A stretch of DNA of 64,000 nucleotides from positions 1,054,001-1,118,000 of the forward strand of contig OY282447.1 of assembly GCA_958296165.1 (NCBI GenBank), given 5' to 3'. The notes under the pieces were generated by a model, which was not told where the DNA came from, did not search any database, and saw only the letters and a program-made list of their open reading frames with translations. The DNA is from an uncultured Pseudomonadales bacterium. GTDB lineage: Bacteria; Pseudomonadota; Gammaproteobacteria; Pseudomonadales; Azotimanducaceae. A program made the translations under genes and the position numbers. Shown one piece after another: positions 2,475-13,094 of the stretch; position 1 is the stretch's first letter; every line of letters starts with the position of its first letter.

Positions 2475-4077
2475 GGGTGTGCGACAAATCGTAGGTCAGC
2501 GATCGCTCACGGGTTCTTCAGGCGGCGAGTTCGGCGACGCGGTCGTCCCAGTAGTGGTCGAACCAGCCGCCGAGCCAGGCGCAGCGCAGCCAGAGCACAG
2601 GGTTGGCGCCGGCGACGGTCCAGCGCATGCCGGTGCATTTCATGCGCCGGCCGACGACGTTCTTGCAGCCCGCCTCGACGATCCCCGAACCGATCGGCAG
2701 GCCGGCCGCGAGGTAGGCGTCGTAGCGCATCCGGTCGCGCCGTTCGGCGAGGTAGCCGACCGCCCTGCGGCATTCCTCGACGTCGCCGCCGCGCCGCCGC
2801 AAGTCGGCCAGCACGTCGTCGAGGCGGCCCGCCTTGAGCATCCCGCACAGCTTCCCCGCCCACGCCGCGGCCAGGTCGCCGGCGGCGTCGTGGCGGGCCC
2901 GCGCCGCCGCCCACAGGTATTCCGCCGCGTGGCAGGAGTCGACGATCCTGGCGGCGTCCGGGAACCAGTCGTCGAACAGCCGCCGGATCCATTCGGCGCC
3001 GTCGCCGACGCACACGTCCACGTCCTGCGGCGCGCAGCCCGCGGCCGCCAGTTCGCGCAGCAGCCGCCGCTCGAACGGCGACTCCTCGCCGGGCGTCTCC
3101 GCCGCGCTCTCGATGCCGCCGAACAGAACCGCCGCGCCCTCGACCATGCGCGGACGCCCCTGGTCGTCCGTCTCGGACACCCACAGAACGCCCACCTTCG
3201 CCTCGCGCGTGCCCGCCCGTCCTCCGTCCTTGCCGGCGCGCCCGGCGGTCTCCCGCGGCAGCGCCGGCACGCCGGTCCCGTCCAGGGCGCAGCACAGCTT
3301 CCGGCCCGGCTTCGACGCCTCGCCCGACAGCGAACCGCCGCATGCGCCGACCGGCTCCGCCGACCGCCACGCCTCCAGGTCCGCGCCCGCCGCCCGCGTC
3401 GCGCGCTCGATGCGCTTCGCGCCGAAGTTCAGCTCCGACAGCTCGCGCAGCAGCCCGTCCGCCCTCGCGTAGCTCGCCTCCAGACCCGCCAGGCTCGCCA
3501 GACGCCGCGCCGACGGCGTCATCGATCCTTCGATGCCGAGCAGCCGCTCGCGCGGGCGCCAGCTGCGCCCGCACTCCCGGCACACGCGCCGCGCCATCTC
3601 CACCGGCACCCTGCCCAGCACCGTGTCCACCGCCGCCTTCCCGCGCCGCGACAGCCGCGCCCGACCGCCGCAGCGCGGACACGGCCCGGGCGCCGCGTCG
3701 TCCTTCCCGTACGCCGCCCGCAGGCCCCGCCGCGCCGACTCCAGCGCCGCAGACCGCAGCCGCCGGTCCAGCAGCGCCGCAGGCGCCGCGCCAGCCTCCG
3801 AACACGCCAGCTCCGCCGCCGCGAACTTCGCCATTGCCGCGTCCACTTCCCGGCGCGCCTCCTCCCGTTCCTCTTCGCGCTTGCGTTTCCCGTCCGACTC
3901 GTCGACAGTCCTCGTCGCCATGGCGGGCCTCCTTGCCCTTGGCTGCTCTGGAAAACACCAAGAGTACGAGGCCCGCCCTGGCTCTCCAAGCCGCTTCGCC
4001 AACCGCACGCCCCATCGTCGACCAATCGGCGATCACCTCGGGTGAGCGATCGCTGACCTACGATTTGTCGCACACCC
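2475..4077. mobile_element. Complete ISKra4-family insertion sequence
   Basis: A 1,603-base element bounded by perfect 36-base inverted repeats (2475-2510 and 4042-4077) beginning gggtgtgcgacaaatc. It is flanked by the 9-base direct repeat aagcgctca (2466-2474 and 4078-4086). It carries one transposase gene on the minus strand. The outer 11 bases of the repeat are the same as those of the other ISKra4-type copies here, although the transposases are clearly diverged. Intact repeats, duplication and gene suggest recent insertion. Confidence 0.95.
2518..3921 (-). CDS. ISKra4-family transposase
   Basis: A 467-residue transposase. An N-terminal region is followed by a zinc-binding segment (CPRCGGRARLSRRGK with CRECGRSW, about residues 95-145), a central catalytic domain (VCVGDGAEWIRRLF, RIVDSCHAAEYLW) and the C-terminal GLPIGSGIVEAGCKNVVG motif typical of ISKra4. 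The start at 3921 is supported by AAGGAGG 7 bases upstream; a longer frame to 4008 lacks such a site. The stop lies 7 bases inside the left terminal repeat. It is intact and may be active. Confidence 0.92.
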   Translation of the reverse strand: MATRTVDESDGKRKREEEREEARREVDAAMAKFAAAELACSEAGAAPAALLDRRLRSAALESARRGLRAAYGKDDAAPGPCPRCGGRARLSRRGKAAVDTVLGRVPVEMARRVCRECGRSWRPRERLLGIEGSMTPSARRLASLAGLEASYARADGLLRELSELNFGAKRIERATRAAGADLEAWRSAEPVGACGGSLSGEASKPGRKLCCALDGTGVPALPRETAGRAGKDGGRAGTREAKVGVLWVSETDDQGRPRMVEGAAVLFGGIESAAETPGEESPFERRLLRELAAAGCAPQDVDVCVGDGAEWIRRLFDDWFPDAARIVDSCHAAEYLWAAARARHDAAGDLAAAWAGKLCGMLKAGRLDDVLADLRRRGGDVEECRRAVGYLAERRDRMRYDAYLAAGLPIGSGIVEAGCKNVVGRRMKCTGMRWTVAGANPVLWLRCAWLGGWFDHYWDDRVAELAA

Positions 4078-6993: not shown

Positions 6994-7056
6994 TGTTCCG
7001 GCCTCAACTCGTGCGTTCCGTACAACTTAATCCGACGTCCCGCCGCGGCGCAACTG

Positions 7057-7882
7057 CGGAGACGATGTACTGCAGCCCGGACGGCACGGGCGTGCCGGTG
7101 GTGCGGCGCGACGCGGGCACGGGGGAGGACGGCAAGCCGTCGAAGACGCGGGAGGCGAAGGTGGCGGTGTTCCACACGGCGGAGCGGCGTAATCCGCAGA
7201 CCGGCCTGCCGGAGCGGGACGCGGGTTCGGCGCGGCACACGGCGGCGATCGACAGCGCGGCGTCGAAGGACGTGGACGCGGAGCCGTCGGCGTTCGCCCG
7301 GCGGCTCGGGCGGGCCGCCGAGCGGTTCGGCTTCGCGGCGGCGAAGCGGCAGGCGGTGGTCGCCGACGGCGCGAAGTGGATCTGGAACGCCGTCGCGGAA
7401 CTGTTCCCGAACGCCATCTGCATCGTGGACGTCTGGCACGCCCGGGAGCGGCTCTGGGAAGTCGGACGCGCCGTGCACGGCGCCGGCACGGCGCGGTGCC
7501 GGGCCTGGTCGGAGAAGGTCTGCGCGGCGCTCCGCGCGGGGCGCGTCGACGACGTGCTGCGGGAACTGCGCCGGCACGCCGGCGACAAGACCGCCGGCCA
7601 GTGCGCCGGATACGTCGAGAACAACCGCAGCCGGATGCGCTGCCCCGCATACCGGGCAATGGGGCTGCTGATCGGGTCGGGCATGGTCGAAAGCTCCTGC
7701 CGAACGCTGGTCGGCGAACGCCTGAAGTGCGCCGGCATGCGCTGGAGCAAGGCCGGCGCCAACGACGTCATGGCCCTGCGTTCCTGCGTTCGCAGCGAAC
7801 TCTACGACGACTTCCGGCGCCATCGGCACAAGCCGCCGCCAAGCGCTGCCTCACCGCTGGCGCACTAAAACGTCGCACACCC
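7057..7882 (+). mobile_element. 5'-truncated ISKra4-type element
   Basis: The right-hand part of an ISKra4-type copy closely related to those at 8899-13025 and 32474-34012. It keeps the last 270 or so transposase residues, from ETMYCSPDGTGVPVVRR to the C-terminal SGMVESSCRTLVGERLK motif (stop at 7868), and the right terminal repeat ending cacaccc at 7882. The left third of the transposase and the left repeat are missing; similarity stops near 7057. No target duplication can be read. It cannot move by itself. Confidence 0.9.
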
Positions 7883-8022: not shown

Positions 8023-8484
8023 CTACGCCACCTCGCGTTCCGTCACCACAGTGACCTGCAAGGTCGTGCCTAGTGCTTCAAGCGCCTCGGCGAGATTGTC
8101 GATCCGTGTCGCTCGGCGTGGCTGGAGCATACGTCTTACAACCGCTTCGTCTACTCGGAGCCGCCGCGCCAAATCCGATTTGGTGGCGTGGCTCTGCTTC
8201 AGTGCATTGTGCAGGGCAGCCTTGGCGGCCAGCAATGGACGCAACCGAACGAGAATGTCGCCACGCTTGGCGGCACTAGCGGTGGGCACTTCCTCCCCCC
8301 GATCCATGCGCTCCGCCACGGCAAGCTCAAGCACCTCGGCGGCCATCATCCTCACTTCTCGATCATCGGTGCCGTAGGTAATGGCCTCCGGGAAATCTCG
8401 GAAAACGACAGTGGCCCCGCCTTCGAGCTCCCGCGTTAACGCCGCTGGGTAGAGATTAGGTTGGGGCGCTTGCGGACGATGCAT
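8023..8484 (-). CDS. hicB: HicB-family antitoxin
   Basis: A 153-residue antitoxin. The N-terminal HicB fold (YPAALTRELEGGATVVFRDF with PEAITYGTDDREVRMMAAEV) binds the HicA toxin. The C-terminal region KSDLARRLRVDEAVVRRML is a helix-turn-helix of the XRE type, used for autoregulation. The ATG at 8484 follows GAGGAGG. It is encoded 12 bases downstream of hicA on the same strand. Domain content is complete, so this module is probably functional. Confidence 0.9.
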   Translation of the reverse strand: MHRPQAPQPNLYPAALTRELEGGATVVFRDFPEAITYGTDDREVRMMAAEVLELAVAERMDRGEEVPTASAAKRGDILVRLRPLLAAKAALHNALKQSHATKSDLARRLRVDEAVVRRMLQPRRATRIDNLAEALEALGTTLQVTVVTEREVA

Positions 8485-8496
8485 TTGAGCCTCCTC

Positions 8497-8742
8497 TTAG
8501 GTTTCCCGTGTTTGAGTTCTTGTGCGAGCAGGCTGAAGCTCGCTTGGCGACACACCGAGTTGACGCAGGATCGCTTGGCGGGTGCCGGGTGGCAACTCGC
8601 GAGAAGATGGCACGAAAGACCTGCGGCCACCCACACAGACCATGACGTGGCTGCCCTTGCCGCGCCGGCGCACTACCGAGAAGTCCAAGCCGTTGGACCT
8701 CGCATATGCGTGCAACATGCGGATCAGTTCCTCGCTTCGCAT
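8497..8742 (-). CDS. hicA: HicA-type mRNA interferase toxin
   Basis: An 81-residue HicA toxin, a double-stranded-RNA-binding-like ribonuclease that cleaves mRNA independently of translation. The essential segment RRRGKGSHVMV carries the catalytic histidine at residue 32, and PSSRELPPGTRQAILRQLG is the typical C-terminal helix region. It is followed by hicB 12 bases downstream. The 147 bases between this gene and the outer target duplication at 8890 hold no recognised gene and probably contain the promoter. Confidence 0.9.
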   Translation of the reverse strand: MRSEELIRMLHAYARSNGLDFSVVRRRGKGSHVMVCVGGRRSFVPSSRELPPGTRQAILRQLGVSPSELQPARTRTQTRET

Positions 8743-9064
8743 GGTCGACCAATCATCGGACTCAAACGTCCGAAGTGCAAGTAGAGGTGCGGCATTCGTC
8801 TGGCGTCAGGGTCTGGCGCTCGCGGTCAAGGAAGCTCGGCGCTTCCGGCCCGTCAACAAACGCTGCGGTCCGCGACTGTCAAGCCGAACCTCACGGTTGG
8901 GTGTGCGACGTTTTAGTGCGCCAGCCGTCAGGCGGCCAGTGGCGGCGGCTTGTGCCGATGGCGCCAGAAGTCGTCGTAGCGTTCGCTGCGGACGCAGGCT
9001 CGCAGGGCCATGACGTCGTTGGCGCCGACCCTGCTCCAGCGCATGCCGGCGCACTTCAGGCGCT

Positions 9065-9271
9065 TGTCTGTTTAGATTCCCCCGTGGGCCTTCGGGAGGG
9101 TCCACCCTGCGGAGCCCTTCGAGGCGCCGCAGGGCAGGCGGTGGTCGGACCGTTTCAGGCGTTGGCCGCAAAGGGCCGCAGGCGAGTTTTGGTCGGCCGC
9201 CGTCTTCCCTCCATGTCCTGAACGGATACATGAGCATCGTGGCTCGCAAGACAAGCACGGGAGGAAGGAAG
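9065..9271 (+). ncRNA. Candidate IS110 bridge-RNA region
   Basis: The non-coding left end of the IS110 element, directly before the transposase ribosome-binding site. Characterised IS110 members transcribe a structured bridge (seeker) RNA from a non-coding end to specify donor and target. This stretch is GC-rich with local self-complementary pieces, for example gtgggccttcgggagggtccac and ccctgcggagcccttcgaggcgccgcaggg-like pairings between 9083 and 9140. The placement is family knowledge; the structure and borders are not established here. Confidence 0.4.
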
Positions 9272-9313
9272 ATGAAGCAGGATACAGCGAACATGGTCGG
9301 CGTGGACATCTCG

Positions 9314-10481
9314 TGAACTGGTTCAGTAGTTATGGCACAGGGGCTAGGCAGCCTCCTGAGCGACAAGGTACTCGTTGGGGGCGAGGTAGTCGAGGGCCGA
9401 GTGCGGGCGTTCGTAGTTGTAGAAGAACTCGTGTTTGAGGAGCTTCCTGGAGACGGCCTTGACGGTGAGGTCGCAGTCGAGGAAGTTCCAGAACTCGATG
9501 CGCGCTGTGCGGTTGGCGCGTTCGACGTGTCCGTTCCACTGCGGTCGCCGCGGCGGCAGGACGCGGAGGTCGATGCCGAGTTCCCTGCAGGCGTCCTCGA
9601 ACTCGGCCATGAACTCGCTGCCGCCGTCGACCTGGATGGAGAGCACGGGCACGGGGAAGCACTCGACGAGGGCGTCGAGGAAGCGCTTGGCGTTGAAGGC
9701 GGTGGCGCGGGAGAAGACGCGCGCGACCATGAACCGGCTGACCGGGCAGATGGCGCGGAACTCCTTGATGGTCTGGCCGTCGCGGGAGAAGGTCATGTGG
9801 TCGATCTGGACGAGCTGGCCGGGGCGTTCGGCCTTGTCGCCGTACTTCCAGCGCCGCGCCCAGCCGTCGAACCTGCGGCGGCGCCTGGGCTTGACCCGGC
9901 CTTCGCAGATGCTGGCGAGGGGCACGGCGCCGGCGGCGATGGCGCGCGAGAGGATGCGCCCGACGGTGGACACGCTCAGGCGCAGGCCCTTGCGTTCGAG
10001 CATGCGCTGGATCGGCGCCTTGCCCATGAACGGATGCCTGCGGCGCAGATCCAGGACGGCCTTCACGTCGCTCGGCTTGTACGACCAGCGCCGGACGCGG
10101 CGCGGGCGGGTGGACTTCGGCGCCAGGCCGCGCTGGCCGCTCGCGGCCAGCGCGGCCTTCCACCGACACATCGTGCGGCGGCTGACGCCGATCTCCCTCA
10201 GGGCGGCCGGCGCGGCGCAGCCGGCTCCGCGCAGTTCGTCGTACCGGCGGATCGCCGACAGGCGCTCGCGGGCCTCGGCCGGCAGCTCGGCGTCGTCGAC
10301 CTTGAAACTGCGGTACGATCGCGTCCGCATCGATTCGATCTTCATGGTTCGGGTCTCCTTTCAGTGGGTTTTGCGTTCACTGAAGGCTACCCGATCCGGC
10401 GTCGGCGGCGGGTCTTCCGTCGCCGACGCCGCCTCAGCCAATCACGGCCCGGGCTGTGCCAAATCTATCTGAGCCGGCACA
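9314..10481. mobile_element. IS481-like insertion sequence (innermost)
   Basis: A 1,168-base element with imperfect terminal repeats (left tgaactggttcag, right in reverse tgtgccggctcag, both followed by a tggcacag-containing stretch). The 6-base target duplication atctcg is at 9308-9313 and 10482-10487. It lies in codons 13-14 of the IS110 transposase gene and encodes one transposase on the minus strand. It is the youngest of the three nested insertions. Confidence 0.9.
9344..10345 (-). CDS. IS481-like DDE transposase/integrase
   Basis: A 333-residue transposase. An N-terminal helix-turn-helix (LREIGVSRRTMCRWKAALA) is followed by a linker and an rve integrase core. The catalytic triad is visible as VQIDHMTFS (Asp), IQVDGGSEFMAEF (Asp) and GHVERANRT (Glu). 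The C-terminus HEFFYNYERPHSALDYLAPN is typical. AAAGGAGA precedes the ATG. It is full length and intact, so the inner element may still be mobile. It is related to the 45984-46973 transposase but clearly different. Confidence 0.92.
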   Translation of the reverse strand: MKIESMRTRSYRSFKVDDAELPAEARERLSAIRRYDELRGAGCAAPAALREIGVSRRTMCRWKAALAASGQRGLAPKSTRPRRVRRWSYKPSDVKAVLDLRRRHPFMGKAPIQRMLERKGLRLSVSTVGRILSRAIAAGAVPLASICEGRVKPRRRRRFDGWARRWKYGDKAERPGQLVQIDHMTFSRDGQTIKEFRAICPVSRFMVARVFSRATAFNAKRFLDALVECFPVPVLSIQVDGGSEFMAEFEDACRELGIDLRVLPPRRPQWNGHVERANRTARIEFWNFLDCDLTVKAVSRKLLKHEFFYNYERPHSALDYLAPNEYLVAQEAA

Positions 10482-13094
10482 ATCTCGAAGTCGCATCTGG
10501 ACGCGCATCGGCTGCGCACCGGCGAGGCGGCGCAGTTCGGCAACGACGCGGCCGGGTTCGAGGAGCTGGCGGTCTGGATCGGCGCGGCGGACTGCGTGGT
10601 CCACGAGGCCACCGGGCGCTGCCACAGGGACTTCGAGGAGGCGCTCGCCGGGGCGGGTCTGCCGCTGGCGCGGGCGAACCCGCTGCGGGCGCGGCGCTTC
10701 GCGCAGTCGATGGGGCGCAACGCGAAGACCGACGCGGCGGACGCCGCGGTTCCGGCGCGGATGGGCGCGGCGCTGGATCTGCGGCCGACGGAGCCGCCGG
10801 GCAGGGCGCTGCGCGACCTGGGAGACCTGACGGTTGCGCGCGAGGCGCTGGCGCGGGACCGGGCGGCGGCGCTGAACCGCCGGAAGGGCCTGCGCGTGGC
10901 GCTGCTCGGGCAGCAGTGCCGGCGGCGGCTGGAGCAGATCGACCGGCAGCTCCGGGCCGTCGAAGCGGAGATCGCGCGCGTGCTGGCGGGCGACGAGGGG
11001 CTGTCGCGCCGCGCCGAGACGCTGGCCTCCATTCCAGGCGTGGGGAAGGCCACCGCGGCCGGGCTGCTGGCCGCGATGCCGGAACTGGGCGGCCTCGACG
11101 CCAAGGCGGCGGCCAGTCTGGCCGGCCTTGCGCCGGTGGCGCGCGAGTCCGGGCAGTGGCAAGGCAAGCGCTTCATCCAGGGCGGTCGCGCGCGCGTGCG
11201 CCGCCTGCCCTGCATGGCGGCCGTCGCCGCCGTCCGGCACAACCCCGATCTCGGCCGCAAGTGCCGCGACCTGATCGGCCGCGGCAAGCCGCCGAAGGTG
11301 GCGCTGGTCGCCGTCATGCGCAAGCTCCTGCTGCTGGCCAACGCGCTGCTCCGCCAGAACCGGCTCTGGACACCGCGAGCGGGCGACGAGCCGGCCGCCG
11401 CTCCGCCCGCGGAGGCGGCCGAGGAAGCCGGCGGCCCTTCGGGCCTTGGCGAAGGGAGCCTCGGCGACCGCAGCCAAGGCCCGAAGGGCCAGCCGCCAGC
11501 CCGCCCCGCCTCCGCGGGCGCCCAACCGCCGCACGGCACCTCCGACCTGCTTCCAGCCCCTGCCTGACACTCCGAAGACCGCAGCGACGGCCAACCTCGA
11601 GAGGTGTGTCTACATACAGCTCCAAAATCGACACTTGCAACACGGATACTCGCCGACCAGCGTGCGACAGGAGCTTTCGACCATGCCCGACCCGATCGGC
11701 AGCCCCATTTCCCGGTACGCGGGATAGCGCATTCTGCTCCGGTTGTTCTCCACGTAGCCGATGCACTGGTCGGCGATCCTGTCGCCGGCGTGTCGGCGCA
11801 GTTCGCGCAGCACGTCGTCGACGCGCCCTTCGGAGAGCGCCGCGCAGACCTTCTCCGACCAGGCTTGGCACAGATCCGTGCCGGCGCCGTACACGGCGCT
11901 CCCCACTTCCCAGAGTCGCTCCCTAGCGTGCCAGATGTCGACGATGCATATGGCGTTCGGGAACAGTTCCGCCACGGCGTTCCAGATCCACTTCGCGCCG
12001 TCGGCGATTGCCACCTGCCGCTCCGCCGCCGCGAATCCGAACCGCTCGGCGGCCCGCCAGAGACGCTGCGCGAACGCCGACGGTTCCGCGTCGACGTCCT
12101 TCGACGCGGCGCTGTCTATCGCCGCCGTGTGCCGCGCCGAACCCGCGTCCCGCTGCGGCAGGCCGGTCTTCGGGTCCTTCCGCTCCGCCGTGTGGAACAC
12201 CGCCGCCTTGGCCTCCCGAGTCTTCGACGGCCTGCCGTCCTTCCCCGTCCCCGCGTCCCGCCGCACCACCGGCACGCCCGTGCCGTCCGGGCTGCAGTAC
12301 ATCGTCTCCGCCGGCGCTTCGCGCAGCGCGACCGTCGCCTCGTCCCACGCCGCGATCTCCCGCCCGACCTGCTTCGCGCACCGCTCCGCCCGCTTCGCCG
12401 TCGTCTCCACCCCAGCCAGCCGGCCCAGACGCGCCGCCGCCTTCGCGAAGCTCTTCTCCGCACCTTCCTCCGCCAGCGCCCACAGCGCCGCCGGCGTCAA
12501 CCGCGCGCCGCTTCTCCCCGCGATGCCCAGCGCCCGGTCCAGCATGTGCAGTCCGCCCTTCGAGCACCCGCACGTCCAGTACCCGCGCCGCAGCGACAGA
12601 CGACCCGGCAGCGACAGCGGCACCGTCGAACGCGTGCCCCGACGGTGCATCGCCGAGCCGCACCGCGCACACGCCGGCGCCTCGAACTCGCCGTCCAGCT
12701 CCGACAGAATCTCCGACGCGCCCAACGCCGCGCCGCCCAGCAACGCGCCCCGCAGGTCCAGCTCGAACTCCCGGAATCCCCGAACCCCGCGCAGAGTCCC
12801 GCGGCAACGCTCGCGGAACTCCGGCGACGACATCAGCAGCAGACGCACCGCCGCCACCAGAAAGGCCCACTCCTCCTTGCGTTCCAGCGCTTCCCGCGCC
12901 AACATCACGTCCGTCATCGCGATTCCCTTCGCTCTGGTCTTCCATACCCTCAGCGTATCCCAGAATCGCGATGACTCTCCAACCCCTGCTCGCAACACCC
13001 GAGCGCACTAAAACGTCGCACACCCCTCACGGTTTCAAATGCAATCGCCCTTGGCCAGTCCGCAGTCGAAAGGCCCTTTGCTATAGTGCGGCCG

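Follow-up and report, generated by a model that had tools for sequence, protein, structure and literature searches.

Predicted RNA-guided, repeated insertion of an IS110-group element into the transposase gene of an ISKra4-type element, with guide changes among relatives and silent changes suggestive of escape

Introduction

In IS621 and the IS110 group of insertion sequences (IS), a bridge RNA provides a target loop and a donor loop, whose left and right guides take in the core (PMC11208160). For the seekRNA of IS1111 and IS110 elements, targets are reported per IS and set by a noncoding RNA, while near-identical versions of IS621 targeting different sites are raised, in the portion of that report available, only as a possibility (PMC11187229). 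As for IS4321 and IS5075, which belong to the IS1111 group, they insert in the terminal inverted repeats of Tn21-type transposons (PMC8269217). The present work concerns an IS110 element carried by an uncultured Pseudomonadales bacterium of the Azotimanducaceae, in a stretch of 64,000 nt (positions 1,054,001 to 1,118,000 of contig OY282447.1, assembly GCA_958296165.1), hereafter the window, which is part of a single-contig 5.07-Mb genome (G000); there, the IS110 element lies within an ISKra4-type element and is itself split by an IS481-like element.

Compared with IS621 as described, the element of the window is alike in (i) an IS110-family recombinase, (ii) a left end that is long and holds a predicted bridge RNA, (iii) a CT core, and (iv) predicted loops for target and donor, the left and right guides of which cover the core, whereas it differs in having as target the transposase coding sequence of another IS and in that two guide versions with matching targets occur on copies about 97% alike within one genome (PMC11208160). 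Insertion at a short core, in sites matching the predicted RNA loops, was likewise read here from sequence. As in the seekRNA systems, a noncoding RNA, here a predicted one, would define the target of each IS; unlike in what is available of that report, near-identical versions of one IS are seen at different targets (PMC11187229). Like IS4321 and IS5075 in the part of their description at hand, this is an IS110-family element landing in other mobile elements, and some copies among its relatives designated class B hit IS481-like end repeats as IS4321 and IS5075 hit terminal repeats; the latter are IS1111-group elements targeting terminal repeats, however, whereas the class A copy of the window splits a transposase gene (PMC8269217). 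A search of the open-access literature, with few papers covered in depth, returned no IS110 element aimed at an IS transposase gene and no silent escape from one. As far as these searches show, it is a new twist for an IS110 element to land in another IS's transposase gene.

The repeated junction, the matches of predicted guides to target and donor, the guide changes tracking targets and the silent diversity at the site can all be read from the sequences, and together make a strong case for a putative parasitism in which one IS exploits another by RNA guidance, the guides switching naturally. The explanation as a whole, i.e., guided and repeated insertion of IS110 into ISKra4, guide shifts among relatives and silent changes suggesting escape, is very probably right. 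It would constitute a natural case where bridge-RNA guides vary among near-identical elements of one genome with targets varying to match, and where RNA-guided recombination takes place between selfish elements, one IS disabling another.

Architecture of the nested elements

An earlier note on this DNA had described three nested insertion sequences, namely an ISKra4-type element entered by IS110 and then by an IS481-like element. The sequence, the duplications, the CT cores and the family models bear this out, and the order of events is supported as well; as such, the three-layer nest is confirmed, with the ISKra4-type element outside, IS110 within and the IS481-like element innermost. Since homologues of every layer occur elsewhere in the same genome, the nest is not a matter of chance. 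Element ends were read from the sequence and cross-checked against homologous copies. In window coordinates, the features are:

8899-13025: ISKra4-type element, outermost layer (from sequence and homologous copies)
8890-8898 (left) and 13026-13034 (right), no strand: 9-bp target duplication CTCACGGTT of the ISKra4-type element
8899..9064, minus strand: ISKra4-type part with an inverted end and the C-terminal transposase codons (stop 8928-8930)
11651..13025, minus strand: other ISKra4-type part, with the transposase from ATG 12917 to the IS110 junction and an inverted end
9065-11650: IS110 element, middle layer, CT core at 9063-9064 and 11649-11650
9065..9313, plus strand: left part of IS110, with left end, bridge RNA gene and first 14 transposase codons (ATG 9272)
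10488..11650, plus strand: right part of IS110, with the remaining transposase (stop ends 11567) and the right end
9055..9064, plus strand: left half of the IS110 target in ISKra4, TTCAGGCG and CT core
11649..11656, plus strand: right half of the IS110 target with the CT core, CT CGCCGA
9314..10481, minus strand: IS481-like element, innermost layer, transposase 9344-10345
9308..9313 and 10482-10487, no strand: 6-bp duplication ATCTCG of the IS481-like element

The IS481-like element sits after 14 codons of the IS110 transposase. With the flanks joined by script, the IS110 frame runs over 387 codons from an upstream ATG and over 373 from the ATG chosen in the earlier note, an uninterrupted copy with a frame of the same length being found; the ISKra4 transposase frame runs over 467 codons from its first ATG, and a longer frame of 476 codons is present elsewhere in the ISKra4-type element. 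Both restored frames that had been announced, i.e., 373 and 467 codons, were thus obtained, and the claim that both outer elements were intact when hit would hold as regards their frames being open.

Respective to family assignment, an uninterrupted IS110 copy (P0001, L123, where L-numbers refer to individual matched loci) scores 202.9 bits with the IS110 NCBIfam model (cut-off 140) and contains DEDD_Tnp_IS110 and Transposase_20 domains, the larger IS110 piece of the window having been checked too. The non-coding left end (9065-9271, 207 nt) is longer than the right one (11568-11650, 83 nt), as in the IS110 group. Target duplications of the ISKra4 family are of 8-9 bp. The outer element belongs to this family by its model score (cut-off 205; 225.1 bits in the window piece, 252.9 in an uninterrupted copy), its inverted ends GGGTGTGCGACGTTTTAGTGCG and its 9-bp duplication. 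For the innermost element, which bears rve domains, IS481 is the best-matching NCBIfam model and six full copies have duplications of 5-6 bp, short as in the IS481 family; it is named IS481-like because its score of 176.2 bits lies under the cut-off of 224.

Predicted bridge RNA

The left end of IS110 contains a candidate bridge RNA, whose predicted target loop spells the ISKra4 site (UUCAGGCG, GGCGAG):

9105..9262, plus strand: body of the predicted bridge RNA, comprising a 5' hairpin and one loop each for target and donor binding (approximate ends)
9154..9163, plus strand: left target guide TTCAGGCGTT, which spells the left target TTCAGGCG plus core
9179..9186, plus strand: right target guide CAGGCGAG, which in reverse complement reads CTCGCC(TG), in agreement with CTCGCC in the right target
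9222..9229, plus strand: left donor guide ACGGATAC, found unchanged at 11642-11649, the right end of IS110
9248..9255, plus strand: right donor guide AAGACAAG, whose reverse complement CTTGTCTT agrees at 7/8 with the left end CTTGTCTG at 9063-9070

The consensus fold of 16 aligned left ends gives two looped stems, i.e., target and donor, with a compensatory change in at least one sequence at 11 of the 29 predicted pairs. Folded alone, the left end of the window element is only mildly more stable than shuffled sequences (z -2.27 and -0.88 for two stretches), and no bridge RNA family was matched in an Rfam scan of the locus. Expression of the bridge RNA and activity of the IS110 recombinase are inferred.

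A recurrent junction in the ISKra4 transposase gene

Genome searches with each layer, together with flank reading, gave 12 IS110 copies with at least one end in the window genome, eight of which abut the same CT of the ISKra4 transposase gene. The junction was found at 7/9 readable left ends (window, L123, L124, L125, L129, L130 and L132) and 5/9 readable right ends (window, L123, L124, L125 and L126), the copies lying away from it being L127, L128, L131 and L141. Insertion at this point cuts the ISKra4 transposase near its C-terminus. Conversely, first-group ISKra4 copies keeping the site in this genome are occupied in 8/11 cases and empty in three (L133, L134 and 7056-7881).

A second genome of the genus, G013, likewise in a single contig, has IS110 next to ISKra4-type sequence at the same place at five loci, namely L169 (5601), L171, L172, L173 and L176, the last as a 26-bp remnant. 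Short ISKra4 derivatives (first ~190 and last ~70 bp) carry the IS110 at L169 and L171. Eight further short derivatives (L304-L311) are uninterrupted; their match covers the first ~190 bases of the element, with small deletions at the target. At L169 (1445-1635), an IS110 left end is cut at the right donor guide and joined inverted to the right end of another copy, as though the guide copy there had acted as a pseudo-donor site.

Across the order (293 genomes drawn from it, E up to 1e-90), the IS110 transposase was matched only in its own genome; therefore, wider guide-target pairs were taken from a named genome collection. The named relatives with the closest transposases are metagenome-assembled genomes of uncultured bacteria, several of which would be sponge-derived, to judge from isolate names. 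No sign of a pathogen was noticed.

Guide changes and target changes

From 78 loci, the left ends of 22 were inspected and 17 kept in the guide table, L198, L220 and, for want of a clear left boundary, L190, L191 and L192 being left out; as the right flank is unreadable in L213 and L215, 15 distant and six close pairs entered the shuffle test. These 21 pairs, which include records of Alphaproteobacteria and Gemmatimonadetes, score 141 on the left (shuffle mean 93.7) and 70 on the right (30.2), and 0/20,000 shuffles reach the observed score on either side. The same holds for the 15 distant pairs alone (0/20,000), while the six close pairs alone give a weaker signal, the score being reached by 461 (left) and 364 (right) of 20,000 shuffles.

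Among close copies whose targets differ, changes are concentrated in the predicted guides: 5/17 guide columns versus 3/191 others for L169a and L170 (Fisher 1e-4), and 5/18 versus 6/189 for L123 and L127. The class A pairs, i.e., window with L123 and L123 with L125, have 0/18 guide columns changed. Outside ISKra4, L127 and L128 have the guides TTTCATGCTC or TTCCATGCTC, with CATGTGAG or CAAGTGAG, and lie at TTGATGCT or TTCATGCT followed by CACATA or CACGTA. In L170 of G013, the left guide resembles one class and the right guide the other, and the target fits. Guide changes, as predicted from the left ends, are thereby shown to track target changes among close IS110 copies.

The class B targets were sought by pattern search in G000 and G013, followed by comparison of the matches, and correspond to the terminal repeats of an IS481-like element. 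At L323, one end bears TTCATGCTCACTTTCTCATTGGACATTACT and the opposite end TTCATGCTCACATAGCATTGGACAGTTCT in inverted orientation, the bounds of the element (824-2487) being inferred from the repeats; the transposase of this element matches the IS481 model weakly (32 bits). The right flanks of L131 and L141 are IS481-like end repeats, L141 being only 78% like the right end of the window IS110; the guides of both are unreadable because neither has a left end. The target of L170 is a 69-bp repeat that is uninterrupted in both genomes and, in L326, adjoins an IS481-like end. Regarding the four copies of OY282433.1, a similar repeat lies within ~80 bp at L186, L193 and L194, and a weaker one at L187. 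Since the changed guides of relatives go elsewhere, some of them to IS481-like terminal repeats, the lineage appears to use other insertion sequences as landing places.

The bridge RNA of L128 (2035-3435), an IS110 with class B guides located inside a protein-coding frame at TTCATGCT followed by CACGTA, is missing ~10 nt of the target-loop stem.

Silent mismatches at uninterrupted sites

The exact 14-base target TTCAGGCGYTCGCC is found unoccupied once in G000 and once in G013, both times in ISKra4. In addition to the nest, the window contains three ISKra4-type sequences with readable sites:

7056..7881, minus strand: ISKra4-type fragment with the empty site TTCAGGCGTT followed by CGCC, sole exact unoccupied match to TTCAGGCGYTCGCC in the window genome
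32473..34011, minus strand: uninterrupted ISKra4-type element (L134) with the silent-mismatch site TTCAAGCGCT followed by CGCC
2518..3921, minus strand: second-group ISKra4 transposase frame with the site TTCATGCGCC followed by GGCC, uninterrupted

A silent mismatch to the guide is present in 20/22 uninterrupted ISKra4 copies, i.e., 2/3 in the window genome and 18/19 of the full-type copies in G013, the mismatched alleles of the latter being TTCAAGCG (6), TTCAGTCGCT followed by CCCC (7), TTGAGGCG (3) and TTCAGCCG (2); the G013 fragment L303 matches the guide and is uninterrupted. None of the seven readable occupied left flanks of the window genome is mismatched. Empty and occupied copies pooled differ in mismatch with a Fisher p of 1.7e-4, a value ignoring the kinship of copies and computed on counts that leave out one uninterrupted, mismatched copy of G013 (L304, 383-558), the eight short derivatives L304-L311 and the occupied L169a and L173. 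In the second ISKra4 group, with the site TTCATGCGYC or TTCATGCGGC followed by GGCC, 7/7 read sites are uninterrupted (eight matches); L181, which has this site, was not counted as first-group.

Silent diversity was considered in an alignment of 18 uninterrupted long copies, 16 from G013 and two from the window genome, without 7056-7881, L300, L303 and L304. The amino acids GERLK are kept in 18/18 and the guide-matching allele occurs in 0/18. Among 403 conserved codons, synonymous diversity peaks at R424 and L425, which would pair with the left guide; taken as two adjacent codons, they come first of 352 such pairs. That the uninterrupted ISKra4 copies escaped the guide by silent changes stands at about an even chance, where mismatches would lower insertion and selection would have driven the silent changes. 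The pattern predicts that single wobble mismatches should lower insertion.

Proposed mechanism and alternatives

In the proposed mechanism, the left end of the IS110-group element would make a bridge RNA, the target loop of which would base-pair, over ~14 nucleotides, with the VGERLKC motif in the transposase gene of the ISKra4-type element while the donor loop pairs with the IS110's own ends, and the recombinase would insert circular IS110 at the CT core. Such guided insertion into ISKra4 probably happened repeatedly, splitting the transposase gene each time; the IS481-like element would have come later, by its own unrelated transposition, into the IS110 transposase. Small guide changes may shift the IS110 lineage between insertion-sequence targets, and surviving ISKra4 copies may mostly have lost the guide match by silent changes, hence escape. 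Whether this amounts to an arms race, where IS110 hunts the ISKra4 transposase gene, ISKra4 escapes synonymously with its protein kept and IS110 shifts its guides between insertion sequences, is evenly balanced.

Several observations weigh against this scheme. Regarding the guides, the match to the target is poor in two of the 21 pairs (L189 and L209) and amounts to only 5/9 on the left guide score in L197, L210 and L212; L169a and L173, both beside ISKra4-type sequence, differ at 4/18 guide columns, their left targets differing also (CTCCAGGCT and TTTCAGGCT), which weakens a simple rule of same target, same guide. Regarding the other targets, L128 lies in a protein-coding frame and the target of L127 is unclear. 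As for escape, the test gives a Fisher p of 0.067 within the window genome alone and otherwise pools related copies and two genomes, and several codons in 413-434 are raised in silent diversity too. Moreover, the three readable occupied left flanks of G013 depart from TTCAGGCGCT: L169a has two mismatches to its own guide, in L173 the guide is shifted by two bases relative to the target at the core, and L176 reads TTCAGCCGCT with 26 bp of IS110 remaining; mismatch is therefore no absolute bar to insertion. Finally, some empty ISKra4 copies could have arisen by precise excision of IS110, and the polymorphisms of the IS110 transposase (L/P, Y/C, Y/H and V/A) are distributed mosaically among L123-L131, which suggests gene conversion between copies that may blur the history of IS110.

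The alternative that survives best accepts guided insertion and attributes the silent diversity to neutral drift or to recombination between ISKra4 subgroups, the guide having adapted to one allele. The raised codons around the site and the kinship of the aligned copies, 16/18 of which come from one genome, speak for it, while the peak on the guide-paired codons among 403 and the lack of the guide-matching allele in the aligned copies speak against it; its chance is a little less than even.

Alternatively, IS110 may have entered ISKra4 once, the pair then moving as a unit by ISKra4 transposition. This composite spread would agree with the own 9-bp duplication of each of the five nested copies with both ISKra4 ends, and with the short IS110-bearing ISKra4 derivatives of G013 (L169 and L171). 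The divergences, however, are discordant between hosts and inserts: the ISKra4 hosts of IS110 are 0.4-14.5% apart (85.5-99.6% alike) over the long part, whereas the IS110 copies are mostly 2-5% apart (95-98% alike), with 0.6% for the closest pair, and between the window and L123 the hosts differ at 7/1541 columns and the IS110s at 29/~1411. In the tree of the long ISKra4 part, where two duplicate window rows (L134 and 7056-7881) were disregarded and several forks are unresolved, occupied copies are scattered with empty relatives between them. L124, furthermore, has on its left the TT of the empty relative 7056-7881 and on its right the donor CT. Composite spread is therefore improbable as the sole cause. 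Given the discordant divergences and the scattering of occupied copies, and provided that precise excision is rare, IS110 is read as having entered ISKra4 separately three times or more. The L124 copy also carries, near the end of its ISKra4 element, a second insert of ~1.6 kb (947-2559) besides IS110.

An assembly artefact, i.e., collapsed or misjoined repeats, may come to mind for a genome so rich in repeats, but is very unlikely for a single-contig genome in which flanks and duplications are distinct between copies and whose junction recurs in a second single-contig genome. As for a sequence-blind hot spot or chance in a generally insertion-prone region, it has only the repetition of the junction in its favour and is negligible in view of base-exact junctions, guide and donor matches, guide changes following targets and the uninterrupted altered sites of the second group.

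Timing of the layers and other observations

The six full copies of the IS481-like element differ from the window copy at 0-1 of 1168 bases, and the innermost insertion is thus part of a recent expansion. With such a divergence against mostly 2-5% for IS110 and up to 14.5% for ISKra4, the claim of the earlier note that the bursts were close in time does not follow from the layers; it also overlooked that the IS110 step appears site-specific and recurrent, which as such gives no clock of a random burst. Among nine relatives inspected for an empty site, no frame in the 1.5 kb upstream of ccmF resembled the window.

At residues 53, 59 and 103, the IS110 transposase of the window carries H, C and P, against Y, Y and L in some other copies; decay after the hit was considered and dropped, as each of these residues recurs in other copies. 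A CRISPR-DR29 match inside the IS481-like element (E 0.025, 25.6 bits, gathering score 39) was taken as chance. Adjoining the outer element, at 8026-8742 of the window, are HicB-like and HicA-like frames (toxin-antitoxin), the HicB-like matches lying under the gathering scores.

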